DNA of 64,000 nt. It comes from a virus. Where the stretch lies: the IMG/VR virus record IMGVR_UViG_3300034071_001727, positions 1-64,000 of that record; one strand, 5' to 3'. The translations under genes and the position numbers were made by a program. This document shows positions 1-64,000 of this stretch, piece after piece (position 1 is the first letter of the stretch; the number at the start of each line of letters is the position of its first letter). Under the pieces are notes generated by a model that was given only the letters and a program-made list of their open reading frames with translations, was not told where the DNA came from and ran no database searches.

Positions 1-111
1 CAAGCCGGGCATGCGCGTGGCCTACGAAGGCAAGGACGGCCGCGTCGAGGGCACCGTGCAGTCCGTGGACCGCAGCGGCACTGAGGCTGACGTCGATGGT
101 GTGTATGTGCG
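1..111. repeat. 111-bp perfect repeat, left copy
   Basis: Identical base for base to 63724-63834, then diverging at the DNA level while still coding GLKLEPV. Both copies are in the giant-gene frame. Confidence 0.9.
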
Positions 112-3100
112 CGGGCTCAAGCTGGAGCCAGTCACTCAAGCTGCCAGCGCGCAGTTCAAGAACTATGAGAAGTGGATTGCCGACGGCAAGCCCGTTTCAG
201 CAGGCATGCGTGAGCAGATTGCAGCTGATGACCGCCTGCAGGATGGCGAAGCTGACATGCTTCTGAGCCGCATCCCAGCCGAGCGTGTCGAGGCTGCCGC
301 CGCCGAAGCCGCGACCAGCCCGGCCAACGACCTGCCGGCGCCGACCGAGGCGCAGAAGGACGCGGGCAACTACAAGAAGGGCGCGCTGAGCCTGCACGGC
401 CTGCGGATCAGTATCGAGAACCCGGCCGGCACCCGCCGGCGTCCGGAGTGGCCGCCGCTCGCGCACCACTACGGGTACATCCGCGGCACCGAAGGCAAGG
501 ACGGCGATCACGTTGACGTCTTCCTCGGCCCCGACGCCGAGAACGCGGACCTGCCGGTGTTCGTGGTCGACCAGGTGACGCAGGCCGGGCGCTTCGACGA
601 GCACAAGGTCATGATGGGCTTCGCCGACGAGGCGGCTGCGCGCGAGGGCTATCTGGCCAACTACTCGCCGGGCTGGTCTGGCCTGGGCGACATCACGCAG
701 ATGGCGCTGGCGGACTTCAAGGTGTGGGTCATGGATCCAGCGCGGACCACCAAGCGCGCGAGTCAGGCAGATTCTTTCGACGCCCGAGCCGCTTGGGAAG
801 CAACGTCCAAGCCGGATCGCGCGCGAATGATCGACCGCTTTTTCGGTGAAGGACTGACCGATGCAGGCGAACGCTACAGCGGTCGCACCTGGGAGCAGTT
901 CAACGTGGGCGAACAAAGCACGCTTTCAGCTTTGCTGAAGGCTGCAGCCAATGCAGGCCGCAGGGAGCCAGATGGCGCACAGCAAGAAGCTGCACCGGCC
1001 ATCACGCGAGAACAGGAAGCAGCGCTCTACGAGTACCTGCGCGAACAGACCGAAGGCGACGCGCTGCGCTACCAGCTACTCGCCCAGAAGTTCCAGCGCG
1101 TTGCCGATGACCGGGCCAGCGAAGAAGACACACGGATCACCCTAGACTGGCTGCAGTCGATGGCCGAAGACGGCACAGAGAAGCAGCGACTGGCGGCGGA
1201 GGGCAAGGCCAAGGCTCAAGCTGACGCTGCAGAGAGTGAGCGCATTGCCGCGGAGCGAGCGGCGGAGTCGCTGTCAGATCTTCGCGCAGGCAAAGCCGGC
1301 AATGAGCGCTATGCGCTGTTCCTGTCCACGCTGAGCCAGTCCGAGCGCGACGCCATCGAAACGGTGGCCGGGTTCAACACGCGGTACATGGCATTTATCA
1401 GCGCTCGATCGGCTGAGTTCAAAGCGAAGGGACGCAGTGACAGCATCAATGACCAAGATGCGTTCACGGCGCACATTCGAGCTTGGGTCGAGGGTCAGAA
1501 GCCCGCCGAAGTCAGCCCCAAGTCGACCAGCAAGACCCCCACCGTTGACCACCACATTGCCGTGATGGACGCAGTGCGCGACGGGACAGGCGATCTTGAG
1601 GCCTACCGGCAGAGCTTCGCCGCCCTCGCTGATGCACCGGAGGCGGTCAAGGCCGAGCTGGCCACGAAGACGAAGGACGAGCTGTTGAAGGCGGGCGGCC
1701 GGAACTTCTACGCGCGCTACAAGCCCGAAAAGAAAGACACGATCATCGCGGCGTTCTACCGTGATCTTCTGGCCGAGTATGCGCTGGGCAAGTCTTATGG
1801 GCCGACCAGCTACTACATGACGCGCGGCGGCATGGCCGAGCACGAACGACTGAAAGCCGAGGCCCTGCGCGAGCTGGTAGCCGGGCAGACCGCCGAGACG
1901 CTGGCCGAGTACGCCGCAGAAGTGAAGGCCGCGCGCGCCGAATACAGCGAACGGTTGGCGGCGCGAAAGCAGGCGGTCACGGAGCCGAAGTCGCTCGACG
2001 ACTTCCGGCAGGCCTTGAGCTTCCACATGGGGCAGGGCAAGACCCGCGACGAGGCGTTTCGCGAGCTGTCGCCCGAACAGCGCATCCGCTATGACGAGCT
2101 CGAAGCTGAGAGCACCCGCGAAGCGCGGGAAGCCCGCAAGCGTGAGGCGCGCACCAGCGTGCGGGCGGCCGGGCAGTCCACCAGCGGGCAAATCATCGAG
2201 ACGAAGCACACCCGTGAGGGCTACGACCTGTTCGTGGTGCAGCTGTCCGACCGGCTGAGCCGCGAGGACTACCAGACCATGCTGGGGTCGGCCAAGCGCT
2301 TGGGCGGCTGGTACAGCAGCTTCCGCGGGCGCGGCGCCGTCTCCGGCTTTCAGTTCAAGGAGCGAGCCAGCGCCGAGGCCTTCGTGCAGCTGGCCGGCGG
2401 CGACACGCAGGCGGCGCAGGCACAGGCCGATCAGCGGCGTGATTCGTTCCAGGATGACCGCAGCCAGTCCGCCGTCGAGCGCTTGCGCGAAATGGCTGAT
2501 CGCATCGAAGAGCGTGCAGACGATGCGCTGGGCGCCGATCGCAAAGTGAACACCGACCGCCGCGCTCGAATGGCGGCATCGGCAGAGCGGGCGGCGCAAT
2601 CGGAGAAGGCACTGGCGCGCACCATGCGCAACATCGCTACTGCTATCGAAGCCGGCGACGCCAAGTTTCTGGACGCGGTGCGGACGAAGACACAGGTAGA
2701 GCTGCTGGCCACCGAAGTCGGGTCGGCAAAGTACGAAGAGCTGCGCGCGAAGCACCCGACCTACGCTGAGCAGGAGCGCCGCCGCGGTGAGCCGCCGACC
2801 GACGAGACGGCCGACTATGCGAAGTGGCCGACCTTCACCGCGTTCCGGTCGGACCTGGCCACGCTGGGGCGCCAGCTGTCTGACGTCGAAGGCACGAAGA
2901 AGCTGGGGCAGCAGATCCTCAGCGTCGCTGACGACGTGACCGATGCGTTCATCGACTTCGCCAAGGAAAACCCGCTCAACCTGGCCAAGCTGTCCACGAT
3001 CGGCGTAGGCGACAAGGTGGCCGAGTTCGCCAACCGCGAGGCCGCAGAGCGCGCCATCCGTCGCAGCAAGCTGGTCGGAAAGGCCATCGTGCTGCCAATC

Positions 3101-6100
3101 AAGCGCGGCGTGAACCGCGTCATCATGAGCCCGAGCGAGGCCATGGCGCGCGGAGTCTGGCAAGGCGACGGCGACAAGCGCATCACACTGACCGGTGAGT
3201 TCGGCAGCAAGCTGGTCGAGACGATCGGCCGGCGAGCCAACGCGCAGAACCGGCTGTCTGTGCCTTGGCAGTTCGAAAGCGCCTACCAGAAGCGCAAGGC
3301 CCTGGCTCGCCTCGGCATCGAGACGCCCAGCGAGTTCCGCTCAGCGCTGCGTGAGTTCATCCGCCTGCAGGAGCGCGCCACATCCAACCGTGTGCGCGAG
3401 CTTGAGCTGTCGATGGTCGGCCGCAAGAACGACGGGCTCGACTTCTTCCCGACGCCGCAGGGCGTGGCCGACCAGATGGTTGAGGCTGCAGAGATCACCC
3501 CCGACATGGCGGTGCTGGAACCCAGCGCAGGCATGGGGCACCTGGCCGACCGCATTCGCGCTGCTGGTGCTGAGCCGGACGTCATGGAGATCAGCCAAGA
3601 GCGCAGGCAGCTGCTGGAAGAGAAGGGCTATCACCTGGCTGAGGTCAACGACTTCTTGGCGCTGGAGCCGCGGAAGTTCTTCACGTTCGGCGACGTGTTC
3701 CGAGCGCCGGACGGCACTGAGGGCATCATGCGCGGGCAGGGCGGCATGGGTAGCCAGCGCATCCGCCTGGAAGACGAAGAAGGCCGCGGGCTTGGCACAT
3801 TCGATCGCTCAGATCTTGAGGGCGTGCGCCATCGCGGCGTTGCCAGCGGCTACGACCGCATCATCATGAACCCGCCTTTCAGCAAGCGCCGCGATGCGGA
3901 GCATGTGCGGCACGCCTACGAACTGCTGCGGCCGGGCGGCCGTATCGTCGCGATCATGGGCGAAGGCGTGTTCTTCGGCTCAGACGCGAAGGCTCAGGAG
4001 TTCCGCGAGTGGCTGGAGTCGGTCGGCGGCACGAGCGAAAAGCTCGAGGCCGGCAGCTTCATGGACGCATCGCTGCCCGTGAACACCGGCGTCAATGCGC
4101 GGATGGTGGTCATCGACAAGGCCGATCCGAACGCTGCAGCGGCGCCTGACGAGCAGGCAGCAGATCCCGAAGCAGACGGCCCGGCGCTGTTCTCGCTGCC
4201 GGACCCCGAGCCGCAGCCGGTGTTCTACTCGGCCGCTGCGCGCGCGATCGAGGAAGGCAAGGGCGCGCCCAAGAAGGGTGACGCAGCAGCCTGGAAGGGC
4301 TGGCTCGACGGCGCTGTGCGCCGCGGCGACATGAAGCAGAGCGAGCGCGATTGGCTGGACATCGACGGCTGGCTTGATCGCCAGGAATCGAACTGGTCAG
4401 TTGTGGACAGCAGGGGGCGAGAGGTCGCCAGCTCCGATGACCGAGGCCGCGCGCTGGCAAACGCAAAGCGCAGGACGGAGAAAGGCGAGAAGCACGACAT
4501 TCGCCCCATGGCCATCACGCGCGAGGCGCTGGCTGAGTTCGTGCGGGCGAATGAGGTTCGGGTCAGCGAGGTGGTGCTTGGCAACAAGGACAAGGCGGGC
4601 GAGTGGGAGCCGACCAAGGGCGGGTTCCGCCGCAGGATCGGCAACCGCTGGACTCACGTCTGGAATCCCGACAGCAAAGGCAATGTTTATGGTGCTGGAC
4701 CGAGCGGGTTTCAGCGCAGGTTCGAGAGCGTGGACGAAGCCAAAGCGCACTTTGATTCGCTGGACATTGCTTCGTCAACGAAGCCGGTTAAGTTCGCCAA
4801 GCACCGCACCCCCGGCGGAGAGAACTACCGTGAGCTGCTGCTGATGCTTCCGAGCGAGCAGGTTTCGTTCAATCTTCAATGGGAACAGCAGACCGATGAC
4901 ATGCTCACGGCCGATCTCCCAAGCGGCCGTTTGGCGCTGATCGTCTACGACCGCCAAGCGCCCGAGAACGGGGCGACGCTCAATACCACCGACCAAGACG
5001 GCGAGGCCGGAACACCAGAGGTGCAGTATCCAAGCGTCGATGCGGCCAAAGACGCGGCGCGCGCCATGGTTGTATCCCGCAACGAGGATAAGCCTGGATA
5101 CCGGTCAAGCCATTGGGACCAGCCCAACGTGCTCGCCCACATCCGCATGGACGAGCGCACCGATGCCGAAGGCCGCCGCGTGCTGTTCGTGCAGGAGATT
5201 CAGAGCGATTGGCACCAGGCTGGGCGGAAGAAGGGATACAAGTCGCAATCGCTCCCGGCAGAGAACTTCGTCAAGAAGGTGGGCGACGAGTTCTTTGTAT
5301 GGACCCGCGCAGTCGATCAACGGGAATGGACTCAGCCCGGCGCCACTGAGGCAGAGGCTGTAAGCAACTTCCTGTCCGACCAAGCTCGGGACACTCGCGT
5401 CCCAAACGCCCCCCTCAAGTCCACCGACGAATGGGCCATGCTCGCCTTCAAGCGCGCCGCTCGCTGGGCCGTGGACAACGGGTTCGACCGCATCGCCTGG
5501 GCGACCGGCGAGCAGAATGCCGAGCTGTTCGACCTGAGCAAGCGGATCAGTCGAGTCGAGTACACCGGCAACGGCACTCTGTTTGCCGATGACCTTCGTG
5601 GCAATCGCGTAATCAACGAGATTGTCAAAGAGGACAAGTTGCCGGACTACATCGGCAAGGAGGCCGCCGAAAAATTGCTCGCGCAAGAGCCAAAGGAAAC
5701 CAGGAGTCCGACCGGGCTTCCGACGAAGCCTAGCCGGTTTCTTGAAGGCATCGACCTCAAGATCGGCGGCGAAGGTATGCGCGGCTTCTACGACAAGATC
5801 CTGCCGGCGGCCGTAGGCAAGTGGGCCAAGAAGTTCGGCGGCAAGGTCGGCTCTGCGGAGTTCATCGGCATCGAGGGTCCGAACGATGCCACCCGCGTGC
5901 ATGCGATCGACATCACGCCGGCCATGGTCGATGCGATTGCGACAGGTCAGCCGCTGTTTTCGGGAATTCCCGGCCAGCCTGCGCGCGCGCTTGGCGTTGC
6001 GCCATCCCAGCTGCAGGCCGCTATCGCCAACGTCATCCGCGGCTGGAACGCTGACACCGCGCCGCGGGTGCGTGTGCTCGCCGACCCCGAGGGTCTGCCG

Positions 6101-9100
6101 GCGCGGGCGAAGCGTGATCCGCGCTACCGCATGGCGGAGGGCTTCTACGATCAGGGCAACCGCACCGTCTACCTGATCGCGTCCAACCTGCCGACCGAAC
6201 GCCGCGCCCTGCAGGTGCTGGCGCACGAGGCGGTGGGCCACTACGGCATGGAGGCGATCACCGGGCCCGAGCTGTGGGCAGAGCTCGAGTCCGCTGTGGC
6301 GCGACTGGAGACGACCGCCACCGGCAAGGTGGGCGAGGCTTTGGCCAGCGCGCGCCGCCGCTACGCGGGCGCGGATCGAGCCACCTTCACGAAGGAGGCC
6401 ATTGCGGTCCTGGCCGAGCGTGGAGTGCAGAACAGCATCGTCTCGCGTGTCGTGGCTTCGGTGCGCCGCTTCCTGCGCTCGCTGGGCTTCGACCTGCGCC
6501 TGTCGGAGTCGGACATCCTCGCCATGCTCCGCGACAGCGCTCGCTATCTCGAGCGCGGCCGACAGGTCGCGGCCGATCAGCCGGTGACGGGCGCCGCGTT
6601 CGCTCGCCCTGACCTGGACCCGAAGCGCCGCGTTCCCGTGATCGAAGCCAAGGCCAATGCCTACGGCCCGACCGGCGATGCTGAGCAGGTCCGTGCTGCG
6701 CGTGCAGCTGCCCGCGCGGATCTCAACACGCAACGCAAGGCGGGCACGAAATGGACCAACGCCGAGAGCGGCATGCGCTTCCGACTGTCGAGCGACGGCA
6801 TCGGCGAGCTGCTGTCCTGGACGGCTGACCCGTCAAAGCTGGACATGCTGGCCGCCCTGCAGCAGATCACCGAGCAGGGCATCGTCGCGCGCGTGGAATC
6901 AAGCCGAGTGGCGTCGCGTCAGGCTGGGCAGCCAGCGCAGGCGCAGACCTGGGCGACGCTCTATGCGCCGGTGAAGGTAGGGGGGAAGCTCAAGATCGCG
7001 CGCATGGTGGCGAAGGACGCCGGCGGCGGGGCTTTCGTCTACGACCTGCAACACTCGACGGTGTTGGACCCCACGGATGCCGCCAGCGATTTGCCTGCTA
7101 CCGAATCAGGTTCTACCGGCGGCCCCGCAGGGCGAGCGATGACGGTATCCCAGCTGCGCGCCATGGTCAACGCTGACGCGCGCGAGGCTTGGAACTGGTC
7201 GATGCCGGCCGATCAGCTGCCGGGCCTCACGGTGCCTGAGCGCACCACGGCCGCGGGCGTGCTGCGCACGATGGCCGAGCAGGGCGGGCTGTTCCGCTAC
7301 CCGCCCAGCCGCGCGGGCGACCTGGCCACGGTCTTCGAGGAAGTGACCGAGGGCACCGTGTCCGCCACCTACAAGGGCGAGACGCTGGCCAACTTCACCG
7401 AAGACCTGGAGGACATGGCCGAGGTCCAGAAGTGGGAGCTGCGCACGAAGGACGGCCGCCCGATGTTCGTGTACGTCGAGGTCGGCGGCGAGAACCGCAT
7501 GTACGTGGATGCCTCGCCGGGCCGCAGCGGCGCCAGCATGGGCAGCGCGGTCTATGCCGCCCTGTTCCAGTACGCGCTGAATGACGGCAAGGTGCTGATC
7601 GGCGACCCGAACGGACTGAGCCCCGAGGCGCTGCTGCGCCGGACGGAACACATGCTGTCCGCTGCGCTCAAGCACGGCACGACCCGCATGATGGCGCCGC
7701 ACCCGCGACAGGTCGACCCGACGCAAGGCCAGTGGGACAGCGGCCCGCAGGCCTGGGCGCACCCGCTGCGCTGGGAGCCCGGCAACGATGACGCCAACCT
7801 GCGCGCGCTGATCGAGACGACGCACCACAACGCGGCGGCCTTCCTGCGCGGTACTGACGGCGAGGGTGCCGTCTACAGCTTTCCCGCCAAGAAGTTCCTG
7901 ACCCGGGACGGGCGCGAGCTCACGCAGGCGGACATCGCCCGTATCAGCAAGCAGGCCGGCAAGAGCTGGCGCGCGGGCCTGGCGGAACCGCTGGGCAACC
8001 CGAACGTGTCCCTGATCGGCCCCACCACCGTGGCGCGCTCGATCATCGCCGGGACGCTGCTGCGCGCCGAGGACAGTCAGCTCGCAAAGCCGCTGCTGGC
8101 CGACATGAACCGACGCGCGCAGGCGGGCGCCGCTGCGCCTGCCGAAGGCCTGTTCTACAGCCTGCGCGAACCGGAGGCCATGGGCGCGAACGCGGACCCG
8201 CGCGGCTTCCTGGCGCGTCTCGGCGCACTGATGAAGCCGGAGAACCTGACCCTGCGCGAGGCGATCGCCGCAAAGCTGCAGGACGTCACGCCGGCCGCGT
8301 TGGGCGCGCTGACCCTGCGCCACATCGCCGAGCTGGGCAAGAAGTACCTGCCGCAGCTGCCGAGCTACATCGACAACCTGAACCGGATGCAGACCGACCG
8401 GAACATCCTGCAGGAGGAAGGCAACGAGCTGGCCGAGAAGTGGCGCGGCATGCAGGTCAAGGACCGCCAGAGCGCCGAGCAGATGGCCGACCTGATGCAC
8501 GACGCCACCATCGAGGGCGTGGATCCGGCCGAGGAATACCAGCCGCTGACCATGGTGAACCTGAGCCGCGAGACGGTGCCGATCACCGATGCCGCGGTGC
8601 GCGACCACATCAAACGCAAGCGCGCGCAGTTCCGCAGCCGGCCGGGCGACGACAAGCGGGCCGAGTTCGAGGAAATCAAGGTGCTGCGCCAGAAGCTGGC
8701 CGCGGAGAAGCGCCGTCGCCGCACGTACCCGCAGCTGGTGGCCCGCTGGAATCAGCTGCCGGCGGAGTGGAAAGAGCTCTACCGCGAAGCGCGCGACATG
8801 TATTCGAAGCGCTCCGACCAGACGCTTGAGGCGCTGATGGCGCGCATCGGCGACCTGGACATGGAAGACGAGCAGAAGCGGAAGACCGGCGCGCAGATTC
8901 GCCTGATGTTTGAGCAGGCGCGGCTGTCTGGCCCCTACTTCCCGCTGCAGCGCTTCGGCAGCTATTGGGTGGCCGCCAAGAATCCCGACACCGGCAAACG
9001 CGACTTCTTCATGTTCGAGTCGGCGGCGGATCAGCTGGCCGGCCAGCGTGACCTGCAGGTGCAGGGCTACACGGACTTGGCGTCGGGCAAGAAGCTCGAA

Positions 9101-11008
9101 CAGGCGCGCGATGCGTTCGGCGCCGGCGAAGGCTTCATGACGGAAGTTCAGCGCAAGCTGCAAAAGGCGCGCGTGCCGCCAGAACTGCAGGATGAAATCT
9201 GGCAGCTGTACCTGCACACGCTGCCGGACCTGAGCCAGCGAAAGCACATGATCCACCGCAAGAAGGTGGCCGGCTACAACCCGGACGCCCTGCGCGCCTT
9301 CGCGGCCAACGCCAACCACGGCGCCTATCAGGTCGCGCGCCTGCGCTACGGCCACAAAATGCAGCGGCTGGTCATGCAGGCGAAGACCTGGGCGGACTCG
9401 AGCGCGAAGACCGATCAGGGCAACCAAGCGAGCATCTACTACAACGAGCTGGTGAAGCGGCACGATTGGGTCATGAACCCCAGCGACAGCGCGCTGGTGA
9501 ACAAGATCAGCGGGCTGGGCTTTGCGTGGTATCTGGGCGTGACCCCGGGCGCGGCGATGGTGAACCTGACGCAGACCGCCATCGTGGCCGGGCCCGTGCT
9601 CGCCAGCCGCTTCGGTGCGGCGAAGTCGATGAACGCCCTGATGAAGGGCATGCGCGACTCGATCCGCACCGGGGGCAACATCGAGCGCACGCTTCGGGAC
9701 GAAGAGCTGCGGGCCTACCAGGCCATGCGCGCATCGGGCGCGATCGACAAGACGCAGGCGCACAACCTGGCCGGCATCGCCGAAGTCGACAGCGCCCAAT
9801 ACAGCGACAGCTGGCACCGCGTCATGAAGGGGATCAGCTACCTGTTCCACAAAGCCGAAGTCGTGAACCGCGAGGCCACCGGCATGGCCGCGTACCGGCT
9901 GGGCCGAGAGCAGGGCATGAGCTTCGATGCGGCCGTGCAGTACGCTGAGGACATCATCTGGGAGTCGCACTTCGACTACTCGAACGCGAACCGCGCGCGC
10001 TTCATGCAGTCCGGCGCGGCCAAGGTGCTGCTGATGTTCCGGCAGTACAGCCTGAGCATGAGCTACTTCCTGTGGCGCAACTTCTACCAGACCTTCAAGG
10101 GGGAAAGCCCCAAGATCAAGCAGGAGGCGCGGCGCAAGCTGCTGGGCGTTCTGGGCATGACGTCGGTGTTCTCCGGCGCGCTGGGCCTGCCCGCCATGAG
10201 CATGGTGTTCGGCGTCGCCAACGCCCTGGCCGATGCGCTGGGCGATGACGAGGATCCGCCGTTCGATGCCGAGGCCGAATTCCGCAACTTCCTGACCGAC
10301 TTCATGGGCGCCGACGTCGCGCGGCTGATCGCCCGCGGCCCGGTGAACTTCGTCACCGGTGCGGACATCGCCAGCCGCGTCACGCTCGACGGGCTGTGGC
10401 TGCGCGAGCCGGAGCGCGAGCTCGAGGGCAAGGCGCTGGCCAACTACTGGCTGGAGCAGGCTGCGGGCCCGATCGGCGGCATCTTCGTCAACGCGATGCA
10501 GGGGCTCAGCCTGTTCCAGCAGGGCGAGGCTTGGCGCGGCGTGGAAGCGATGACCCCGAAGTTCGTGAAGGACGCGCTGCGCTCAATCCGCTACTCGACC
10601 GAAGGCGTGAACACGCTCCGCGGCGATGCGCTGATCCCCGACCTGTCGCCGGCACAGACCGTGTTGCAGCTGGCTGGCCTGGCGCCGGCGCAGGTCAACG
10701 AGCGCTACGACGCGAACAACGCCATCAAGCGCTACGAGGAATCGATCCTGCGCAGCCGCCAGCGGCTGTTGGACGGCTTCGCCCTGGCTGTGCGGCTGGA
10801 AGACGACCGCATGCGCGACAGCACCCTGCAGCGCATCCGGGCGTTCAACGCGGCCAACCCGGAGATTCCCATCGACGCGAAGACCATCCGCACCAGCCTG
10901 CAGGCGCGCGCGCGCTACACGGAACGCAGCCTGGGCGGCGTCGCGGTCAATTCGAAGATCGAAGCGCGGGCGCGCGAGCAGGGTAGGTTTGCCGAGGATC
11001 AGCCGTGA
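2..11008 (+). CDS. Giant polyvalent (DarB-like) virion protein, C-terminal part, 5' truncated by window edge
   Basis: The frame is open from base 2, so the first ATG at 11 is internal and the real start is probably at 60617 at the other end of the window. About 3,670 residues are visible. Modules counted from the ATG at 11: a polyvalent-protein pyrophosphatase-like domain (HVDVFLGPD, about 167); an N6-adenine-type methyltransferase (FFPTP about 1145, LEPSAGMGHL about 1169, NPPF about 1287); a conserved module with QEIQSDWHQ (about 1728); a degenerate metallopeptidase motif HEAVGH (about 2072, not a true HExxH); then a long alpha-helical C-terminus with a hydrophobic stretch near 3376-3410. 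In relatives such proteins are carried in the virion and ejected with the DNA, and the methyltransferase resembles P1 DarB antirestriction proteins. Protection of incoming DNA is inferred. The stop overlaps the next gene by 4 bases. Confidence 0.9.
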   Translation, partial: KPGMRVAYEGKDGRVEGTVQSVDRSGTEADVDGVYVRGLKLEPVTQAASAQFKNYEKWIADGKPVSAGMREQIAADDRLQDGEADMLLSRIPAERVEAAAAEAATSPANDLPAPTEAQKDAGNYKKGALSLHGLRISIENPAGTRRRPEWPPLAHHYGYIRGTEGKDGDHVDVFLGPDAENADLPVFVVDQVTQAGRFDEHKVMMGFADEAAAREGYLANYSPGWSGLGDITQMALADFKVWVMDPARTTKRASQADSFDARAAWEATSKPDRARMIDRFFGEGLTDAGERYSGRTWEQFNVGEQSTLSALLKAAANAGRREPDGAQQEAAPAITREQEAALYEYLREQTEGDALRYQLLAQKFQRVADDRASEEDTRITLDWLQSMAEDGTEKQRLAAEGKAKAQADAAESERIAAERAAESLSDLRAGKAGNERYALFLSTLSQSERDAIETVAGFNTRYMAFISARSAEFKAKGRSDSINDQDAFTAHIRAWVEGQKPAEVSPKSTSKTPTVDHHIAVMDAVRDGTGDLEAYRQSFAALADAPEAVKAELATKTKDELLKAGGRNFYARYKPEKKDTIIAAFYRDLLAEYALGKSYGPTSYYMTRGGMAEHERLKAEALRELVAGQTAETLAEYAAEVKAARAEYSERLAARKQAVTEPKSLDDFRQALSFHMGQGKTRDEAFRELSPEQRIRYDELEAESTREAREARKREARTSVRAAGQSTSGQIIETKHTREGYDLFVVQLSDRLSREDYQTMLGSAKRLGGWYSSFRGRGAVSGFQFKERASAEAFVQLAGGDTQAAQAQADQRRDSFQDDRSQSAVERLREMADRIEERADDALGADRKVNTDRRARMAASAERAAQSEKALARTMRNIATAIEAGDAKFLDAVRTKTQVELLATEVGSAKYEELRAKHPTYAEQERRRGEPPTDETADYAKWPTFTAFRSDLATLGRQLSDVEGTKKLGQQILSVADDVTDAFIDFAKENPLNLAKLSTIGVGDKVAEFANREAAERAIRRSKLVGKAIVLPIKRGVNRVIMSPSEAMARGVWQGDGDKRITLTGEFGSKLVETIGRRANAQNRLSVPWQFESAYQKRKALARLGIETPSEFRSALREFIRLQERATSNRVRELELSMVGRKNDGLDFFPTPQGVADQMVEAAEITPDMAVLEPSAGMGHLADRIRAAGAEPDVMEISQERRQLLEEKGYHLAEVNDFLALEPRKFFTFGDVFRAPDGTEGIMRGQGGMGSQRIRLEDEEGRGLGTFDRSDLEGVRHRGVASGYDRIIMNPPFSKRRDAEHVRHAYELLRPGGRIVAIMGEGVFFGSDAKAQEFREWLESVGGTSEKLEAGSFMDASLPVNTGVNARMVVIDKADPNAAAAPDEQAADPEADGPALFSLPDPEPQPVFYSAAARAIEEGKGAPKKGDAAAWKGWLDGAVRRGDMKQSERDWLDIDGWLDRQESNWSVVDSRGREVASSDDRGRALANAKRRTEKGEKHDIRPMAITREALAEFVRANEVRVSEVVLGNKDKAGEWEPTKGGFRRRIGNRWTHVWNPDSKGNVYGAGPSGFQRRFESVDEAKAHFDSLDIASSTKPVKFAKHRTPGGENYRELLLMLPSEQVSFNLQWEQQTDDMLTADLPSGRLALIVYDRQAPENGATLNTTDQDGEAGTPEVQYPSVDAAKDAARAMVVSRNEDKPGYRSSHWDQPNVLAHIRMDERTDAEGRRVLFVQEIQSDWHQAGRKKGYKSQSLPAENFVKKVGDEFFVWTRAVDQREWTQPGATEAEAVSNFLSDQARDTRVPNAPLKSTDEWAMLAFKRAARWAVDNGFDRIAWATGEQNAELFDLSKRISRVEYTGNGTLFADDLRGNRVINEIVKEDKLPDYIGKEAAEKLLAQEPKETRSPTGLPTKPSRFLEGIDLKIGGEGMRGFYDKILPAAVGKWAKKFGGKVGSAEFIGIEGPNDATRVHAIDITPAMVDAIATGQPLFSGIPGQPARALGVAPSQLQAAIANVIRGWNADTAPRVRVLADPEGLPARAKRDPRYRMAEGFYDQGNRTVYLIASNLPTERRALQVLAHEAVGHYGMEAITGPELWAELESAVARLETTATGKVGEALASARRRYAGADRATFTKEAIAVLAERGVQNSIVSRVVASVRRFLRSLGFDLRLSESDILAMLRDSARYLERGRQVAADQPVTGAAFARPDLDPKRRVPVIEAKANAYGPTGDAEQVRAARAAARADLNTQRKAGTKWTNAESGMRFRLSSDGIGELLSWTADPSKLDMLAALQQITEQGIVARVESSRVASRQAGQPAQAQTWATLYAPVKVGGKLKIARMVAKDAGGGAFVYDLQHSTVLDPTDAASDLPATESGSTGGPAGRAMTVSQLRAMVNADAREAWNWSMPADQLPGLTVPERTTAAGVLRTMAEQGGLFRYPPSRAGDLATVFEEVTEGTVSATYKGETLANFTEDLEDMAEVQKWELRTKDGRPMFVYVEVGGENRMYVDASPGRSGASMGSAVYAALFQYALNDGKVLIGDPNGLSPEALLRRTEHMLSAALKHGTTRMMAPHPRQVDPTQGQWDSGPQAWAHPLRWEPGNDDANLRALIETTHHNAAAFLRGTDGEGAVYSFPAKKFLTRDGRELTQADIARISKQAGKSWRAGLAEPLGNPNVSLIGPTTVARSIIAGTLLRAEDSQLAKPLLADMNRRAQAGAAAPAEGLFYSLREPEAMGANADPRGFLARLGALMKPENLTLREAIAAKLQDVTPAALGALTLRHIAELGKKYLPQLPSYIDNLNRMQTDRNILQEEGNELAEKWRGMQVKDRQSAEQMADLMHDATIEGVDPAEEYQPLTMVNLSRETVPITDAAVRDHIKRKRAQFRSRPGDDKRAEFEEIKVLRQKLAAEKRRRRTYPQLVARWNQLPAEWKELYREARDMYSKRSDQTLEALMARIGDLDMEDEQKRKTGAQIRLMFEQARLSGPYFPLQRFGSYWVAAKNPDTGKRDFFMFESAADQLAGQRDLQVQGYTDLASGKKLEQARDAFGAGEGFMTEVQRKLQKARVPPELQDEIWQLYLHTLPDLSQRKHMIHRKKVAGYNPDALRAFAANANHGAYQVARLRYGHKMQRLVMQAKTWADSSAKTDQGNQASIYYNELVKRHDWVMNPSDSALVNKISGLGFAWYLGVTPGAAMVNLTQTAIVAGPVLASRFGAAKSMNALMKGMRDSIRTGGNIERTLRDEELRAYQAMRASGAIDKTQAHNLAGIAEVDSAQYSDSWHRVMKGISYLFHKAEVVNREATGMAAYRLGREQGMSFDAAVQYAEDIIWESHFDYSNANRARFMQSGAAKVLLMFRQYSLSMSYFLWRNFYQTFKGESPKIKQEARRKLLGVLGMTSVFSGALGLPAMSMVFGVANALADALGDDEDPPFDAEAEFRNFLTDFMGADVARLIARGPVNFVTGADIASRVTLDGLWLREPERELEGKALANYWLEQAAGPIGGIFVNAMQGLSLFQQGEAWRGVEAMTPKFVKDALRSIRYSTEGVNTLRGDALIPDLSPAQTVLQLAGLAPAQVNERYDANNAIKRYEESILRSRQRLLDGFALAVRLEDDRMRDSTLQRIRAFNAANPEIPIDAKTIRTSLQARARYTERSLGGVAVNSKIEARAREQGRFAEDQP

Positions 11009-12795: not shown

Positions 12796-12935
12796 ATGGC
12801 GGTCTATGGCGGTCTATGGCAAGGGAAGCCGCGCGGCGCCTCGCGCTGGTGCGGTACATGGCGGTCCATGGCGGCGATGCGCCGGACTCCTTCTCCGCCA
12901 TACAAACGCCGAAGGCCCTGAGAAATCAGGGCCTT
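12796..12935. other. Candidate attP: integrase arm-type repeats plus tRNA-Ser-like 3' end
   Basis: Directly upstream of integrase lie tandem decamers ATGGCGGTCT (12796-12805 and 12806-12815) and a further copy ATGGCGGTCC at 12858-12867, suitable as integrase arm sites. Downstream, CTCCTTCTCCGCCA followed by a spacer and hairpin looks like the 3' end of a tRNA-Ser (acceptor strand, discriminator G, CCA) with its terminator. P4-type integrases usually use tRNA 3' ends as att cores. The core assignment is inference, because no tRNA body is present, as expected for attP. Confidence 0.5.
12912..12935. terminator. Hairpin terminator at the attP edge
   Basis: Perfect 10-bp stem AAGGCCCTGA / TCAGGGCCTT with a GAAA tetraloop, followed by TTTCGCG. 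It probably came with the tRNA-like att core. On the minus strand it also ends the accessory operon, because the stop of the 12926 gene lies in its stem. Confidence 0.65.
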
Positions 12936-13162
12936 TCGCGTTCTTGGGCCTGACGTCCCACACCCTGTCCCATACTCGGGGCGGCGCTTACGGCAGCATC
13001 CGCAGCCGCCCTGATCTTGTCGCCGACCCTCTCCCAACAGTCTGAGCGCCACCCCGCATAGTGCGGGCCTTCGTCCTGGTATCCGTCGCACGCCTCCAGC
13101 AGCTTTTCAAGCTGCTCGGGCGTCAGGTCGATCGTGATCCGAATCTGCTTGTCCATGTCCAC
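12926..13162 (-). CDS. Hypothetical protein, last gene of leftward accessory operon (78 aa)
   Basis: A strong ribosome-binding site (GGAGGGG, 6 bases before the ATG) supports this start. The N-terminus (RITIDLTPEQLEKLLEAC) is a beta strand then a helix, like many small phage proteins, and a conserved-looking YAGWRSDCWERVGDKI segment follows. The last 15 or so residues run through a copy of the sequence that starts integrase (GTCCCAyAC repeats) and into the attP hairpin, so the C-terminus may have been remodelled by recombination at the attachment site. No function is assigned. Confidence 0.6.
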   Translation of the reverse strand: MDMDKQIRITIDLTPEQLEKLLEACDGYQDEGPHYAGWRSDCWERVGDKIRAAADAAVSAAPSMGQGVGRQAQERERP

Positions 13163-60616: not shown

Positions 60617-63600
60617 ATGGCGATCGATCCGAACACGCAGCGGCCGAAGCCGCGCACGCTCTCCGACTTCGCCCCGCCTGCGCTGCAAGGACCGCTCGCG
60701 CCCCAAGCACCGAAGAAGCGCACCGGCGGCGAGATCCTGGCCGACAGCGCGCGTGGTGTCGCACAAGGCGCGCAGTCGCTGTCGACAGGGCTCGCGCAGG
60801 TGCCCAACCTGCTGACCGGCGGGGCGCTCGATCAGTACGTCGTCCGGCCCGCTCAGCGGACGCTGGACAAGGCGCTTGGCGGGCCGGGGCAGGACTACGG
60901 CATCGCAGGCGCCAGCGGTCGCATGAGCGAAGGCCTGTCGTCAGGGCTGAGCCCCGTGCTCAAGGCCGAACAGCAGAAGCTGCAGGACGCCGATGGCTGG
61001 CTGGCCAAGGCGGGCACCGTGGCGACCAACCCGACCTTGCTGGGGCAGTTCGCCGCCGAGCAGGTGCCGATGCTGGCCACGCTGGGCACAGGCGCTGCGG
61101 GCACGGCCTCGGCGAAGGGTGCGCAGGCAATCGCGCAGGGCGCCACGCCGGCAGTCGCGCAGCAGGTCGGCAAGAAGGCGGCAGAGCGCGCGCTGATCGG
61201 TGCCAACACCGCCATGGGCGCGGGCTTCGCAGGCACTGGCGCGCAGCAGGACGCCATGAGCCAGCCGCAAGAGGTCTGGGACGCAAACCCCGAGTATCAG
61301 GCGCTGGTGCGGGCGGGCACGGCCCCCGACCAGGCAAAGCAGCAGCTCGCGTTGCGCGCCGGTCAGATCGCCGGCGCCATCGCCGCGCCGATCAGTGGCG
61401 CCGCCGGCGCGATCACCGCACCGCTGGAAGCATCGATCTTCACCCGCACGCTGGGCGCCGGCGTGCCGGCCCTGCTGTCGAAGCAAGGCGCGGGCATCGT
61501 TGCCCGAGGCATCGGCAAAGAGGCAGCGGAAGAGGCGATTCAGGAAGGCGGCGAGCAGTTCGGGCAGAACGTCGGCATCCAGCAGGCGGTGGACCCCACG
61601 CGCGCGCTGTCGCAGGACGTGGCCGACAATGCCGCGATCGGTGGCGTGCTGGGCGGCGTGCTGGGCGGCGGCCTGACCGCTGGCGGTCTGGCGCTCTCGC
61701 GCGATCCGCTGCGCGATGTTCCGCCCCTGCCCGGGGCACAGCCGGGACCGCAGCAAGGCCAGCCCCCGCGGCCTGCCGCGCCGCGCCCGCCGTCGCCCGC
61801 CGAGCAGGAGCAGCAGCTGCGCACCGCCGTGGCCATGGCGCAGACGCCCGAGCAGGCTGCAGCCGCAGGGCAGGCCCTGGCCGGCTTCCTGGAGCAGCAG
61901 GGCCGTCTGCTGGAGCCGCCGCAGACCATCGTGGGCGACTCGCAGGGCAATCTGCAGCCCAACGCACCGACACCGCCGCAGCTGTTCGATGCGCCGCGCA
62001 TCCGCCTGGGCAGCGTGCCCGGTGGCGTGGGCTCTGTGCAGCAGGCGCCCCGAGGCGTGCCGGCGCAGCCGCGCGTGCCGTTTCCCGATGCCGCGCCGGG
62101 CACCCTGCAGGATGCGGTCAACGCGATCACCGAGGCGCAGCCGGAAGCCGCGGCACCTGCTGCCGTTGAGCCGCCCCAACTGCGCCCTGGCGAAACCATG
62201 GACCCCGAGACGGGCGAGGTCAAACCGCGCGAAGTGTCGGCCGCGCAACAGCAGCAGATGGACCTACAGGCCGCGCTGGCGGCCAGCCCGACCCCTGACC
62301 TACTGACCCCGGCCGGCAAGCGCGGGAAGGAGCGACGCCGTGACAAGAAAGACCCCAAAGCCGCGGGGATGGCTGGCCCGCGAACATTGGAACAACCTGT
62401 CGTTGCGGCGGAAGGTGCAGCAGAAATCGGGCGGACTCCCGCCAATCCGATGGGTGAAGCCGACGCCGGAACTGTTGAGCTCGCTGAAAGGGATTCGGTA
62501 CGTCGAGCTGCCGATTCTGCTGGTGCAGACCCCGATCAAACCGCGTCGTTCGGCGACGCCTCCGATCCCATTCGATCCCGAAGCACTGGCGACGCAACTC
62601 GCGTGTCCGGACCTTCTGTCGCCGGAGTTTCTGGTTTTGGCGCGACGCCCGCGACGCCCGACGAGGCAGCTGATCCCGGTCGATCCGGACTCCCCGATGC
62701 TCGAAGTGGTGCCGTCGATGGCGAGCGTTCCGATCGAGCTACAGGGACGCAAGACGCTGGTAGTGGTTTCGACACCCAAGTAGCCCAGCAAACCCCCGAC
62801 CCCGCCACGCAGGAGGGCCAGACCGATGGACGAGGAAGAGCTGCAGAGCCGCTGGCACAAGGCGGAGCGGATGGCTTGGAACCTGTCGGGGCAAGTGGCC
62901 AAGGAGCGACTGCTGCGCGTGATGGTGACGGTGAACCTGCAGTCGAAGCGCCCGCTGGCGCCGCTGCCGCCACCGCTGCAGCGCCTGGAGCCCCCGAAGT
63001 AGATGCCGCCGCGGCCGGCTTCGCCGCGAACACGACCGAAGGAGACACCGATGTACGGACGAATCCCGAACAAGGGCGCAGCACCGGGCAAGGCACCGCC
63101 GAAGCCGTCGAAAGCACCGCCCAAGGGCAAGAAGTCGAAGGCGAGCAAGCACAGCAGCAGCTGACAGGCGAAGCGCTCACTGCAGAGCGCAAGCGCATTG
63201 GCCTTCCGCGAGTGATCCGGAAGGCCGATGCCGTCGCGGCCCTGCGCCGTGCCGGGATGAAGAAGGCAGAGGCAGAAACCGCGTTCCTCAAGCTGAATCA
63301 GAAGGGGCTCAGGGACGGCACCCGCATGGGTGACGACGTGGCCGCGCTGATTGCAGCGCGCACGCAGCCGGCGGCGTCGGCGCCGGCACCAGGGGAGGTG
63401 GTCGAAAGTGGTCCCGCATCCGGGCGAGCGCCTGTAGATCCGCCCGCCGCGGCCACCGATGCAGCGGCGGGCGCACAGTCGCCCGCGAAGGACAAGGCCC
63501 TGCGCCGGATCGAGCGCGGCACCGCGTTCTTCGCGACACGCGATCGCGCCGACGAGTTCATCGCCGCCGGCGGCATCGGCGACACGCACGAAGCTGTGCA

Positions 63601-64000
63601 GGCCAAGCCCGGCCGCTTCGACGTGCGAGCGAAGCAGGCCAGCGCTGAGCCCGCAGCAGCCGCGCCGGAGCCGCTGCCGAAGCGCGGCGAGGAAGACCGC
63701 AAGGCCATGGCCGAGCGCGGCATCAAGCCGGGCATGCGCGTGGCCTACGAAGGCAAGGACGGCCGCGTCGAGGGCACCGTGCAGTCCGTGGACCGCAGCG
63801 GCACTGAGGCTGACGTCGATGGTGTGTATGTGCGTGGGCTGAAACTCGAGCCCGTGGCTGAGCAGGCAAGCCCCAACCGGCCTGAACAGATTGATGCCGG
63901 GTTTCAGGCCAATCGCGAAGCGATCGAGCGCGAGCGCTTCAAGAAAGGCGACCCGGTGGAGTTCACCGCCGCTGGGCCGTTCACCAACGCTGACGGCAGC
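60617..64000 (+). CDS. Giant polyvalent virion protein, N-terminal part, 3' truncated by window edge
   Basis: ATG 60617 (MAIDPNTQRPKPRTLSDFAP) begins a frame open to the last base (1,128 residues). The frame is the one that continues at the window start, so the two pieces are almost certainly one gene of at least about 4,800 codons. Residues about 40-390 are Gly/Ala-rich with hydrophobic helices (GVLGGVLGGGLTAGGLALSR) and the EEAIQEGGEQFGQ pattern seen near N-termini of ejected phage proteins. About 390-850 is a low-complexity linker; its DNA at 62340-63164 also carries three nested ORFs. From about 1040 the frame codes a small module (KPGMRVAYEGKDGRVEGTVQ) identical to the one at the window start. 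Confidence 0.88.
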   Translation, partial: MAIDPNTQRPKPRTLSDFAPPALQGPLAPQAPKKRTGGEILADSARGVAQGAQSLSTGLAQVPNLLTGGALDQYVVRPAQRTLDKALGGPGQDYGIAGASGRMSEGLSSGLSPVLKAEQQKLQDADGWLAKAGTVATNPTLLGQFAAEQVPMLATLGTGAAGTASAKGAQAIAQGATPAVAQQVGKKAAERALIGANTAMGAGFAGTGAQQDAMSQPQEVWDANPEYQALVRAGTAPDQAKQQLALRAGQIAGAIAAPISGAAGAITAPLEASIFTRTLGAGVPALLSKQGAGIVARGIGKEAAEEAIQEGGEQFGQNVGIQQAVDPTRALSQDVADNAAIGGVLGGVLGGGLTAGGLALSRDPLRDVPPLPGAQPGPQQGQPPRPAAPRPPSPAEQEQQLRTAVAMAQTPEQAAAAGQALAGFLEQQGRLLEPPQTIVGDSQGNLQPNAPTPPQLFDAPRIRLGSVPGGVGSVQQAPRGVPAQPRVPFPDAAPGTLQDAVNAITEAQPEAAAPAAVEPPQLRPGETMDPETGEVKPREVSAAQQQQMDLQAALAASPTPDLLTPAGKRGKERRRDKKDPKAAGMAGPRTLEQPVVAAEGAAEIGRTPANPMGEADAGTVELAERDSVRRAADSAGADPDQTASFGDASDPIRSRSTGDATRVSGPSVAGVSGFGATPATPDEAADPGRSGLPDARSGAVDGERSDRATGTQDAGSGFDTQVAQQTPDPATQEGQTDGRGRAAEPLAQGGADGLEPVGASGQGATAARDGDGEPAVEAPAGAAAATAAAPGAPEVDAAAAGFAANTTEGDTDVRTNPEQGRSTGQGTAEAVESTAQGQEVEGEQAQQQLTGEALTAERKRIGLPRVIRKADAVAALRRAGMKKAEAETAFLKLNQKGLRDGTRMGDDVAALIAARTQPAASAPAPGEVVESGPASGRAPVDPPAAATDAAAGAQSPAKDKALRRIERGTAFFATRDRADEFIAAGGIGDTHEAVQAKPGRFDVRAKQASAEPAAAAPEPLPKRGEEDRKAMAERGIKPGMRVAYEGKDGRVEGTVQSVDRSGTEADVDGVYVRGLKLEPVAEQASPNRPEQIDAGFQANREAIERERFKKGDPVEFTAAGPFTNADGS
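62340..62783 (+). CDS. Nested gene 1 inside giant gene linker (147 aa)
   Basis: GTG 62340 lies 7 bases after AAGGAG (62327-62332). The ORF is in the frame +1 from the giant gene (frame 3 vs frame 2). Hand count: 110 of 147 third bases are G/C (75 percent) here versus 73 of 147 (50 percent) in the giant frame over the same span, so codon bias favours this frame. The product is basic and Pro-rich (MTRKTPKPRGWLAREHWNNL; PPIRWVKPTPELLSSLKGIR), with no membrane segment and no family recognised. Followed by two more nested ORFs in the same frame. Confidence 0.68.
   Translation: MTRKTPKPRGWLAREHWNNLSLRRKVQQKSGGLPPIRWVKPTPELLSSLKGIRYVELPILLVQTPIKPRRSATPPIPFDPEALATQLACPDLLSPEFLVLARRPRRPTRQLIPVDPDSPMLEVVPSMASVPIELQGRKTLVVVSTPK
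62826..63002 (+). CDS. Nested gene 2 inside giant gene linker (58 aa)
   Basis: ATG 62826 lies 8 bases after AGGAGGG (62811-62817), a near-perfect Shine-Dalgarno. Hand count gives G/C at 53 of 58 third positions (91 percent) versus 24 of 58 (41 percent) in the giant frame. Product MDEEELQSRWHKAERMAWNL then SGQVAKERLLRVMVTVNLQS and a Pro-rich end: an amphipathic helix followed by a strand. It ends at TAG 63000. Too short for most gene finders. Function unknown. Confidence 0.7.
   Translation: MDEEELQSRWHKAERMAWNLSGQVAKERLLRVMVTVNLQSKRPLAPLPPPLQRLEPPK
63051..63164 (+). CDS. Nested gene 3 inside giant gene linker (37 aa)
   Basis: ATG 63051 follows AAGGAG (63039-63044) by 6 bases. Product is 37 residues, Lys/Pro/Ala/Ser-rich (MYGRIPNKGAAPGKAPPKPS, then KAPPKGKKSKASKHSSS), highly basic. 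Third-base G/C is 30 of 37. It ends at TGA 63162-63164, where the codon bias returns to the giant frame. A DNA- or RNA-binding peptide is possible. Weakest of the three because of length. Confidence 0.55.
   Translation: MYGRIPNKGAAPGKAPPKPSKAPPKGKKSKASKHSSS
63724..63834. repeat. 111-bp perfect repeat, right copy
   Basis: Partner of 1-111. The two copies are followed by different protein sequence (VTQAASAQFKNYEK versus VAEQASPNRPEQID), so they are two domains, not a simple terminal redundancy. Confidence 0.9.

Follow-up and report, generated by a model that had tools for sequence, protein, structure and literature searches.

DarB of phage P1 and the DarB-like polyvalent proteins were surveyed by Iyer et al. 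in 2017 (PMC5512222), and a phage JC1 relative of the DarB-like protein has been detected in virions (PMC9144972). A search of the 2017 survey's main text by term found nothing about genes that overlap, or use an alternative frame, inside polyvalent genes. Embedding of the spanin gene Rz1 in Rz has been exemplified in Lessievirus (PMC9144972), and TnpV has been described as an ordinary gene for which a role in excision has been postulated from its similarity to Xis (PMC3158075). Here, we describe three small genes, n1 to n3, nested in another reading frame of a giant DarB-like gene. They are very probably real, representing one case of a general architecture in which modular cargo genes occupy the linkers of DarB-like giant genes. 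From a comparison covering about 120 related loci, hidden, un-annotated nested genes are in all likelihood widespread and conserved in phage giant genes of the DarB-like class. Both conclusions are made without expression data. An earlier note on this DNA had remarked that no such cassette was known in giant ejected proteins, and we found no description of nested genes in polyvalent genes in the literature searched; most subscription papers lay outside that search, and priority remains uncertain.

The window, meaning the whole stretch of DNA analyzed, comprises 64,000 of the 64,459 bases of virus record IMGVR_UViG_3300034071_001727. Its longest gene occupies positions 60617 to 64000 on the plus strand as an open frame that runs past the window end. 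The ends of the record overlap with 97% identity over 306 and 129 bases, indicating that the record is probably circular or permuted and that the giant gene continues through the record end. Provided that the record is circular, positions 2 to 11008 likely encode the rest of the protein. Window positions 1 to 592 and record positions 63724 to 64459 hold a single portion of the giant gene in two diverged copies, 97% identical and unequal in length, which could reflect population variation.

The part encoded by positions 2 to 11008 matches phrog_10089 (DarB-like), phrog_15406, PF18853, PF18858, PF18798, and PF18823, with the inorganic pyrophosphatase domain InPase (PF18823), LPD37, LPD39, LPD3, and DNA methyltransferases among the families matched. 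The giant gene thereby qualifies for the DarB-like polyvalent class with methylase and LPD domains. By analogy with P1 DarB and the JC1 relative, for which this is known, its product may be of a kind carried in the virion and ejected with the DNA. The N-terminal 574 residues have relatives in viral and prophage loci (L003 to L025), while a search of genome contigs with the N-terminal part gave no match. We also observed that the N-terminal part (60617 to 62338) matches the N4-type virion RNA polymerase family PHROG 2206 (E = 8.8e-24, residues 129 to 359), a region common to the prophage giant genes L006 to L023. These loci are related through the N-terminal part only, and we found no clear nested genes with start signals in them.

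The giant frame is open over all of 62340 to 63164, where three open reading frames (ORFs) of 147, 58, and 37 amino acids lie in the +1 frame relative to it on the same plus strand. The first, n1 (62340 to 62783), starts with GTG 7 nt after the Shine-Dalgarno sequence AAGGAG (62327 to 62332). The second, n2 (62826 to 63002), starts with ATG 8 nt after AGGAGGG (62811 to 62817). The third, the Lys/Pro-rich n3 (63051 to 63164), starts with ATG 63051, 6 nt after AAGGAG (63039 to 63044). An alternative start for n3, the in-frame ATG 63003 directly after the n2 stop (TAGATG), would give 53 amino acids and is kept in the relative L003. The giant frame spanning the nested genes (62339 to 63163) reads as a stop-free linker rich in Ala, Gly, Asp, and Pro with 10.6% hydrophobic residues. 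Right after n3, at 63167 to 63370, the giant frame encodes a small conserved domain (LTAERKRIGLPRVIRKADAVAALRRAG...), which occupies the same place after n3 in L003.

Third-position GC is higher in the nested frame than in the giant frame for n1 (74.8% versus 49.7%), n2 (91.4% versus 41.4%), and n3 (81.1% versus 64.9%). Using a codon log-likelihood model trained on 19 other genes of the window, we obtained scores of +0.073 nested versus -0.214 giant nats per codon for n1 (total difference, +42) and +0.356 versus -0.252 for n2 (+35). For n3, the scores of +0.106 and +0.052 differ by only +2 in total, a weak signal that leaves n3 ambiguous by codon bias alone. The bias flips nowhere else in the giant frame (0 of 409 windows of 147 codons and 0 of 435 windows of 58 codons), a scan of the window's giant gene for biased nested ORFs returned only n1 and n2, and beyond about 63165 the bias is back in the giant frame (+0.242 versus -0.316). 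These results uphold the claims of the earlier note that codon bias moves to frame 3 over an open giant frame and returns at 63165, weakly so for n3, and that each ORF has a strong Shine-Dalgarno sequence at 6 to 8 bases. Its third-position GC values of 75, 91, and 81% for the nested frame also held; of its giant-frame values of 50, 41, and 62%, the last was recomputed as 64.9%.

The only close relative found in IMG/VR, L003, is an independent assembly whose giant N-terminal part is 77% identical and whose giant frame is likewise open across the nested cluster. Its +1 frame contains homologs of all three nested genes plus three more, namely, a 68-amino-acid gene between the n1 and n2 homologs and two others. 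The n1 homolog (L003 positions 9469 to 9906; 145 amino acids) shares the start VTRKT after the same AAGGAG element, the n2 homolog (10138 to 10314) is 66% identical over 58 of 58 residues, and the n3 homolog (10360 to 10461) is identical at 24 of 31 residues. For n2 and n3, whose alignments are ungapped, we counted identical residues in each frame and compared the counts with those obtained when the same substitutions are placed at random. Identity in the nested frame exceeds this expectation (P = 0.0013 for n2 and P = 0.0003 for n3), while the giant-frame protein over the two genes matches it (P = 0.65 and P = 0.45, respectively). Since n1 was aligned through its own protein, its P value is not independent, and the conservation evidence for all three genes rests on this one relative. 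Two observations that the earlier note had named as refutations, a lack of frame-3 conservation in relatives and a frameshift error separating the giant gene, were thus not made. No domain match to n1, n2, or n3 was found in Pfam or PHROGs, and none of them matched the TnpV profile; tblastn of n1 against phages gave no match, and searches of viral contigs with n1, n2, and the n3 start pattern returned L003 only or nothing.

Other nested proteins of this group are much more widely distributed. We defined family F from a 104-amino-acid nested protein of L003 and family G from a 134-amino-acid nested protein of the distant relative L025. Searches by tblastn with these proteins located matches within annotated giant genes of the DarB-like class in named phages, and the matching frame is +1 in 10 of the 11 records with a usable giant annotation. 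Family F lies in +1 in Pavtok, SopranoGao, PEp14, POI1126, Atu_ph08, and VvAW1, and family G does so in 45A6, Parlo, Skulduggery, and Vibrio 1.232.O. None of the phage records examined annotates the nested genes. Itty13 carries F in +1 of a giant ORF that is un-annotated over that stretch, Microcystis phage Mwe-JY07 also carries F, and an F-like nested gene was recognized by eye in Pseudomonas phage USP_25. The hosts of phages with nested families span Erwinia, Klebsiella, Pseudomonas, Agrobacterium, Vibrio, Ruegeria, Serratia, and Microcystis. Scans of IMG/VR and GTDB genomes yielded 66, 27, and 38 loci, which together with the named phages gave 120 distinct F or G genes.

Additional nested families recur in these genes. 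Family H is found about 2.4 to 2.5 kb into the giant ORFs of Pavtok, PEp14, and Parlo, a position comparable to that of n1 to n3 (1.7 to 2.5 kb). A 50-amino-acid family occupies differing positions in 45A6, PBC5, Atu_ph08, and others; a 66-amino-acid family recurs; and the stop codon of a basic 51-amino-acid family abuts the G start in locus L121. Nested genes were not detectable in some giant genes, including those of douglas 12A4 and Y11, and family F had no match in plasmids. Profile comparison found F unrelated to G, n1, and n2 (hhalign probability of 4% for F versus n1). The structure model of F is a confident helical protein over residues 1 to 70 (pLDDT of about 92), that of G is also helical (pLDDT of 78), and neither matched a fold in the PDB. 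Family F is remotely similar to TnpV (PF14198): 52 of 82 members match at E < 0.05, the best at 2.9e-7, and three tabulated members fall below the curated threshold of 27 bits.

Several of these records hold further observations. Most of the Itty13 giant ORF (L028, NC_070969; at least 4112 amino acids) is un-annotated, and hypothetical proteins on the opposite strand are annotated instead. USP_25 (L175) encodes a very basic 36-amino-acid nested ORF with a Shine-Dalgarno sequence at 3310 to 3420, about 2 kb into the giant gene, in the zone of the basic n3. In PBC5 (L034, NC_003324), an indel at about 7955 has probably split a single giant gene into gp22 and gp21. In F116 (L171, NC_006552), the end of p59 at 12818 to 13120 overlaps methylase sequence (NPPFSKG) in +1, and p60 starts just after. 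We rejected this short +1-biased ORF as a nested gene, as it is methylase sequence in the wrong frame; a sequencing frameshift likely splits the F116 giant gene. In Pseudidiomarina (L141, 5974 to 6762), F is a stand-alone gene fused to a C-terminal part resembling membrane helices.

We evaluated the open giant frame against an expectation in which each small protein was recoded synonymously with the codon usage of its locus. The giant frame is stop-free over 111 of 120 distinct F or G genes, versus approximately 5 expected. Loci that lie within an ORF of 1000 amino acids or more are open by definition, so 111 of 120 is the fair figure. All 17 nested loci with a GC content below 55%, including phages of 38 to 50% GC, are open versus 0.02 expected, and in one locus of 38% GC (L127), 11 stops are expected and none is present. 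Where F lies outside long giant frames, stops are often present (L136, L139, L141, L144, L151, L161, and L162). Approximately 91% of nested F and G starts have a Shine-Dalgarno sequence, versus 9% of the 7951 remaining +1 ATGs of those giant genes. As the loci are related, formal P values overstate their independence.

The ratio pN/pS for F and G is mostly 0.06 to 0.5 in the nested frame versus mostly 1 to 4 in the giant frame. The latter is inflated by the nested-frame figure in the overlap and is therefore evidence only that, apart from staying open, the giant frame is itself under little constraint. Across 156 giant ORFs, a scan identified 122 biased nested ORFs, all 122 in +1 and none in +2. 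Across F and G, the giant frame is stop-free and encodes Gly, Ala, Arg, Asp, Glu, Ser, and Pro, with hydrophobic residues at 10%, while the other frame would contain 840 stops and encode 29% Arg along with Cys and Trp; +1 is therefore the arrangement in which reading across yields an inert linker. The features of same-strand nested genes that can be read from sequence are satisfied: a small ORF wholly inside another open frame, constraint on the nested frame, and maintenance of both frames; that both proteins are made is inferred.

The nested genes are also fixed in position relative to the domains that follow them. The methylase-SNF2 module opens with the motif xITxxxxLGxGGxKTK, and F lies at most 125 nt upstream of it in 43 of 62 motif-bearing loci (in one, the motif precedes the F stop by 7 nt) and about 515 to 600 nt upstream in the other 19. 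The pattern was not found downstream of F in 32 further loci, including Pavtok and PEp14, in whose downstream part methylase and SNF2 domains are present by Pfam or similarity. Family G is directly upstream of a different module, an SF2 helicase (LPLLLPEQxxDV...TNGTGTGKT). The same giant-frame sequence precedes F in Pavtok (QFDSEV) and G in Parlo (QFDNEV), indicating that unrelated small genes can fill one slot.

In Verrucomicrobiota, the gene that houses F encodes a 1720-amino-acid methylase-SNF2 protein, and F lies within its N-terminal linker. Near the N terminus of these proteins (L152, L157, and L164) is the motif QLDLF, which we take to resemble a beta-clamp binding motif. In one Anaerolineales genome (Chloroflexi; L156), F is followed about 20 nt after its stop by a separate 970-amino-acid helicase ORF in another frame. 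An old pair of a small gene and a helicase gene could later have been fused by an upstream frame extending across the small gene. Six loci (L136, L139, L141, L144, L151, and L162) carry F without a detectable helicase nearby; a role purely as partner of the helicase is therefore not required.

Among the alternative explanations, de novo overprinting, in which the linker is older and the nested genes are younger, survives best but is unlikely. In its favor, n1 to n3 have no relatives beyond the window phage and one other, as expected of young genes. However, F is conserved across phyla, resembles TnpV, and occurs un-nested in some genomes, while the giant frame over it is unconserved; the nested frame is constrained for n2 and n3 too, though this does not date them. 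The earlier note had left two origins open, readthrough of inserted genes or an overprinted linker. The evidence from family F favors readthrough: conservation lies in the small gene, which also occurs un-nested in some genomes, and the giant frame that crosses it is free of stops although not conserved.

Programmed frameshifting that yields a truncated giant-plus-small fusion, or bypass or splicing out of the giant mRNA, is considerably less plausible. Its support is that, in the PBC5 record, the upstream half of the giant gene and F share one frame. However, five relatives lack the PBC5 frame switch, which lies at about 7955 (46 nt upstream of F) and is a single-record indel. The nested genes also start at a conserved ATG with a Shine-Dalgarno sequence (91%) and fail as frameshift products. 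Under bypass or splicing, nothing would preserve a giant frame without stops, and the observed open frame led us to reject intron, intein, and translational bypass.

Spurious ORFs, open in +1 by chance in a GC-rich genome with nothing translated, are all but excluded. Long open frames are indeed common in all six frames here, but the codon bias and third-position GC flip only at the nested genes, and n2 and n3 are conserved beyond chance in L003. F and G are conserved across phyla and also in phages of 38 to 50% GC, with Shine-Dalgarno enrichment, and for these two families the explanation is refuted. Assembly or sequencing error, by which the giant gene would really be two genes with the nested genes between them, can be practically ruled out: the record is metagenomic with ends differing by 3%, and single-base errors that split giant genes do occur (PBC5 and probably F116), but the giant frame is open in the window and L003 assemblies and across F or G in isolate genomes from many laboratories.

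We thus return to nested cargo genes as the preferred reading. Coding bias, a conserved frame, start signals, recurrence in many phages, and a position fixed to downstream domains are shown from sequence. We infer, with no transcript, ribosome, or protein evidence, that n1 to n3 are translated independently from the giant-gene mRNA through their own internal Shine-Dalgarno and start signals. The giant frame over the small genes would be kept merely stop-free and yield a hydrophilic, probably disordered linker; the small gene would be the constrained frame and, for F, older than the linker frame. The nested proteins may serve the adjacent domain of the giant protein as accessory partners, acting as a chaperone, cofactor, or temporary inhibitor, and would be made in cis late in infection. 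This is the most economical guess because the nested genes are tied to the next domain, but it is only inferred, and we rate it as less likely than not. A bolder reading, which we also rate as more apt to be wrong than right, is that giant-gene linkers are a standard dual-coding housing. Each nested family would be tied to one downstream domain and move with it as a two-frame module (F with methylase-SNF2 and G with the SF2 helicase), and the small protein made in cis would bind that domain before packaging as a chaperone or temporary inhibitor.

The largest gene of many phages and prophages thus appears to hold at least one conserved small gene missed by annotation. The direction of overprinting, which can seldom be read, is visible at these loci, where a conserved small gene lies under an unconserved linker frame at GC contents of 38 to 70%. 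The loci suggest a route by which giant ejected proteins gain new domains, namely, fusion through a neighboring gene instead of its replacement, and, in phages that can be propagated on laboratory hosts, they provide candidates for partners of the DarB-type methylase-helicase.

The likeness to TnpV of clostridial mobilisable elements (PF14198) consists of the remote profile match of family F; the difference is that most loci have F nested inside a helicase or giant gene. In relation to P1 DarB and the DarB-like polyvalent proteins, the gene that houses the nested ORFs is of the same class, with its methylase, InPase, LPD37, LPD39, and LPD3 domains and DarB-like PHROG. The arrangement resembles Rz1 within Rz of the phage spanins in that a small gene with its own start lies wholly inside another in a different frame. 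Unlike that single pair of lysis genes, however, several unrelated small genes here occupy the linkers of a gene of 3000 to 5000 amino acids and are tied to particular domains.
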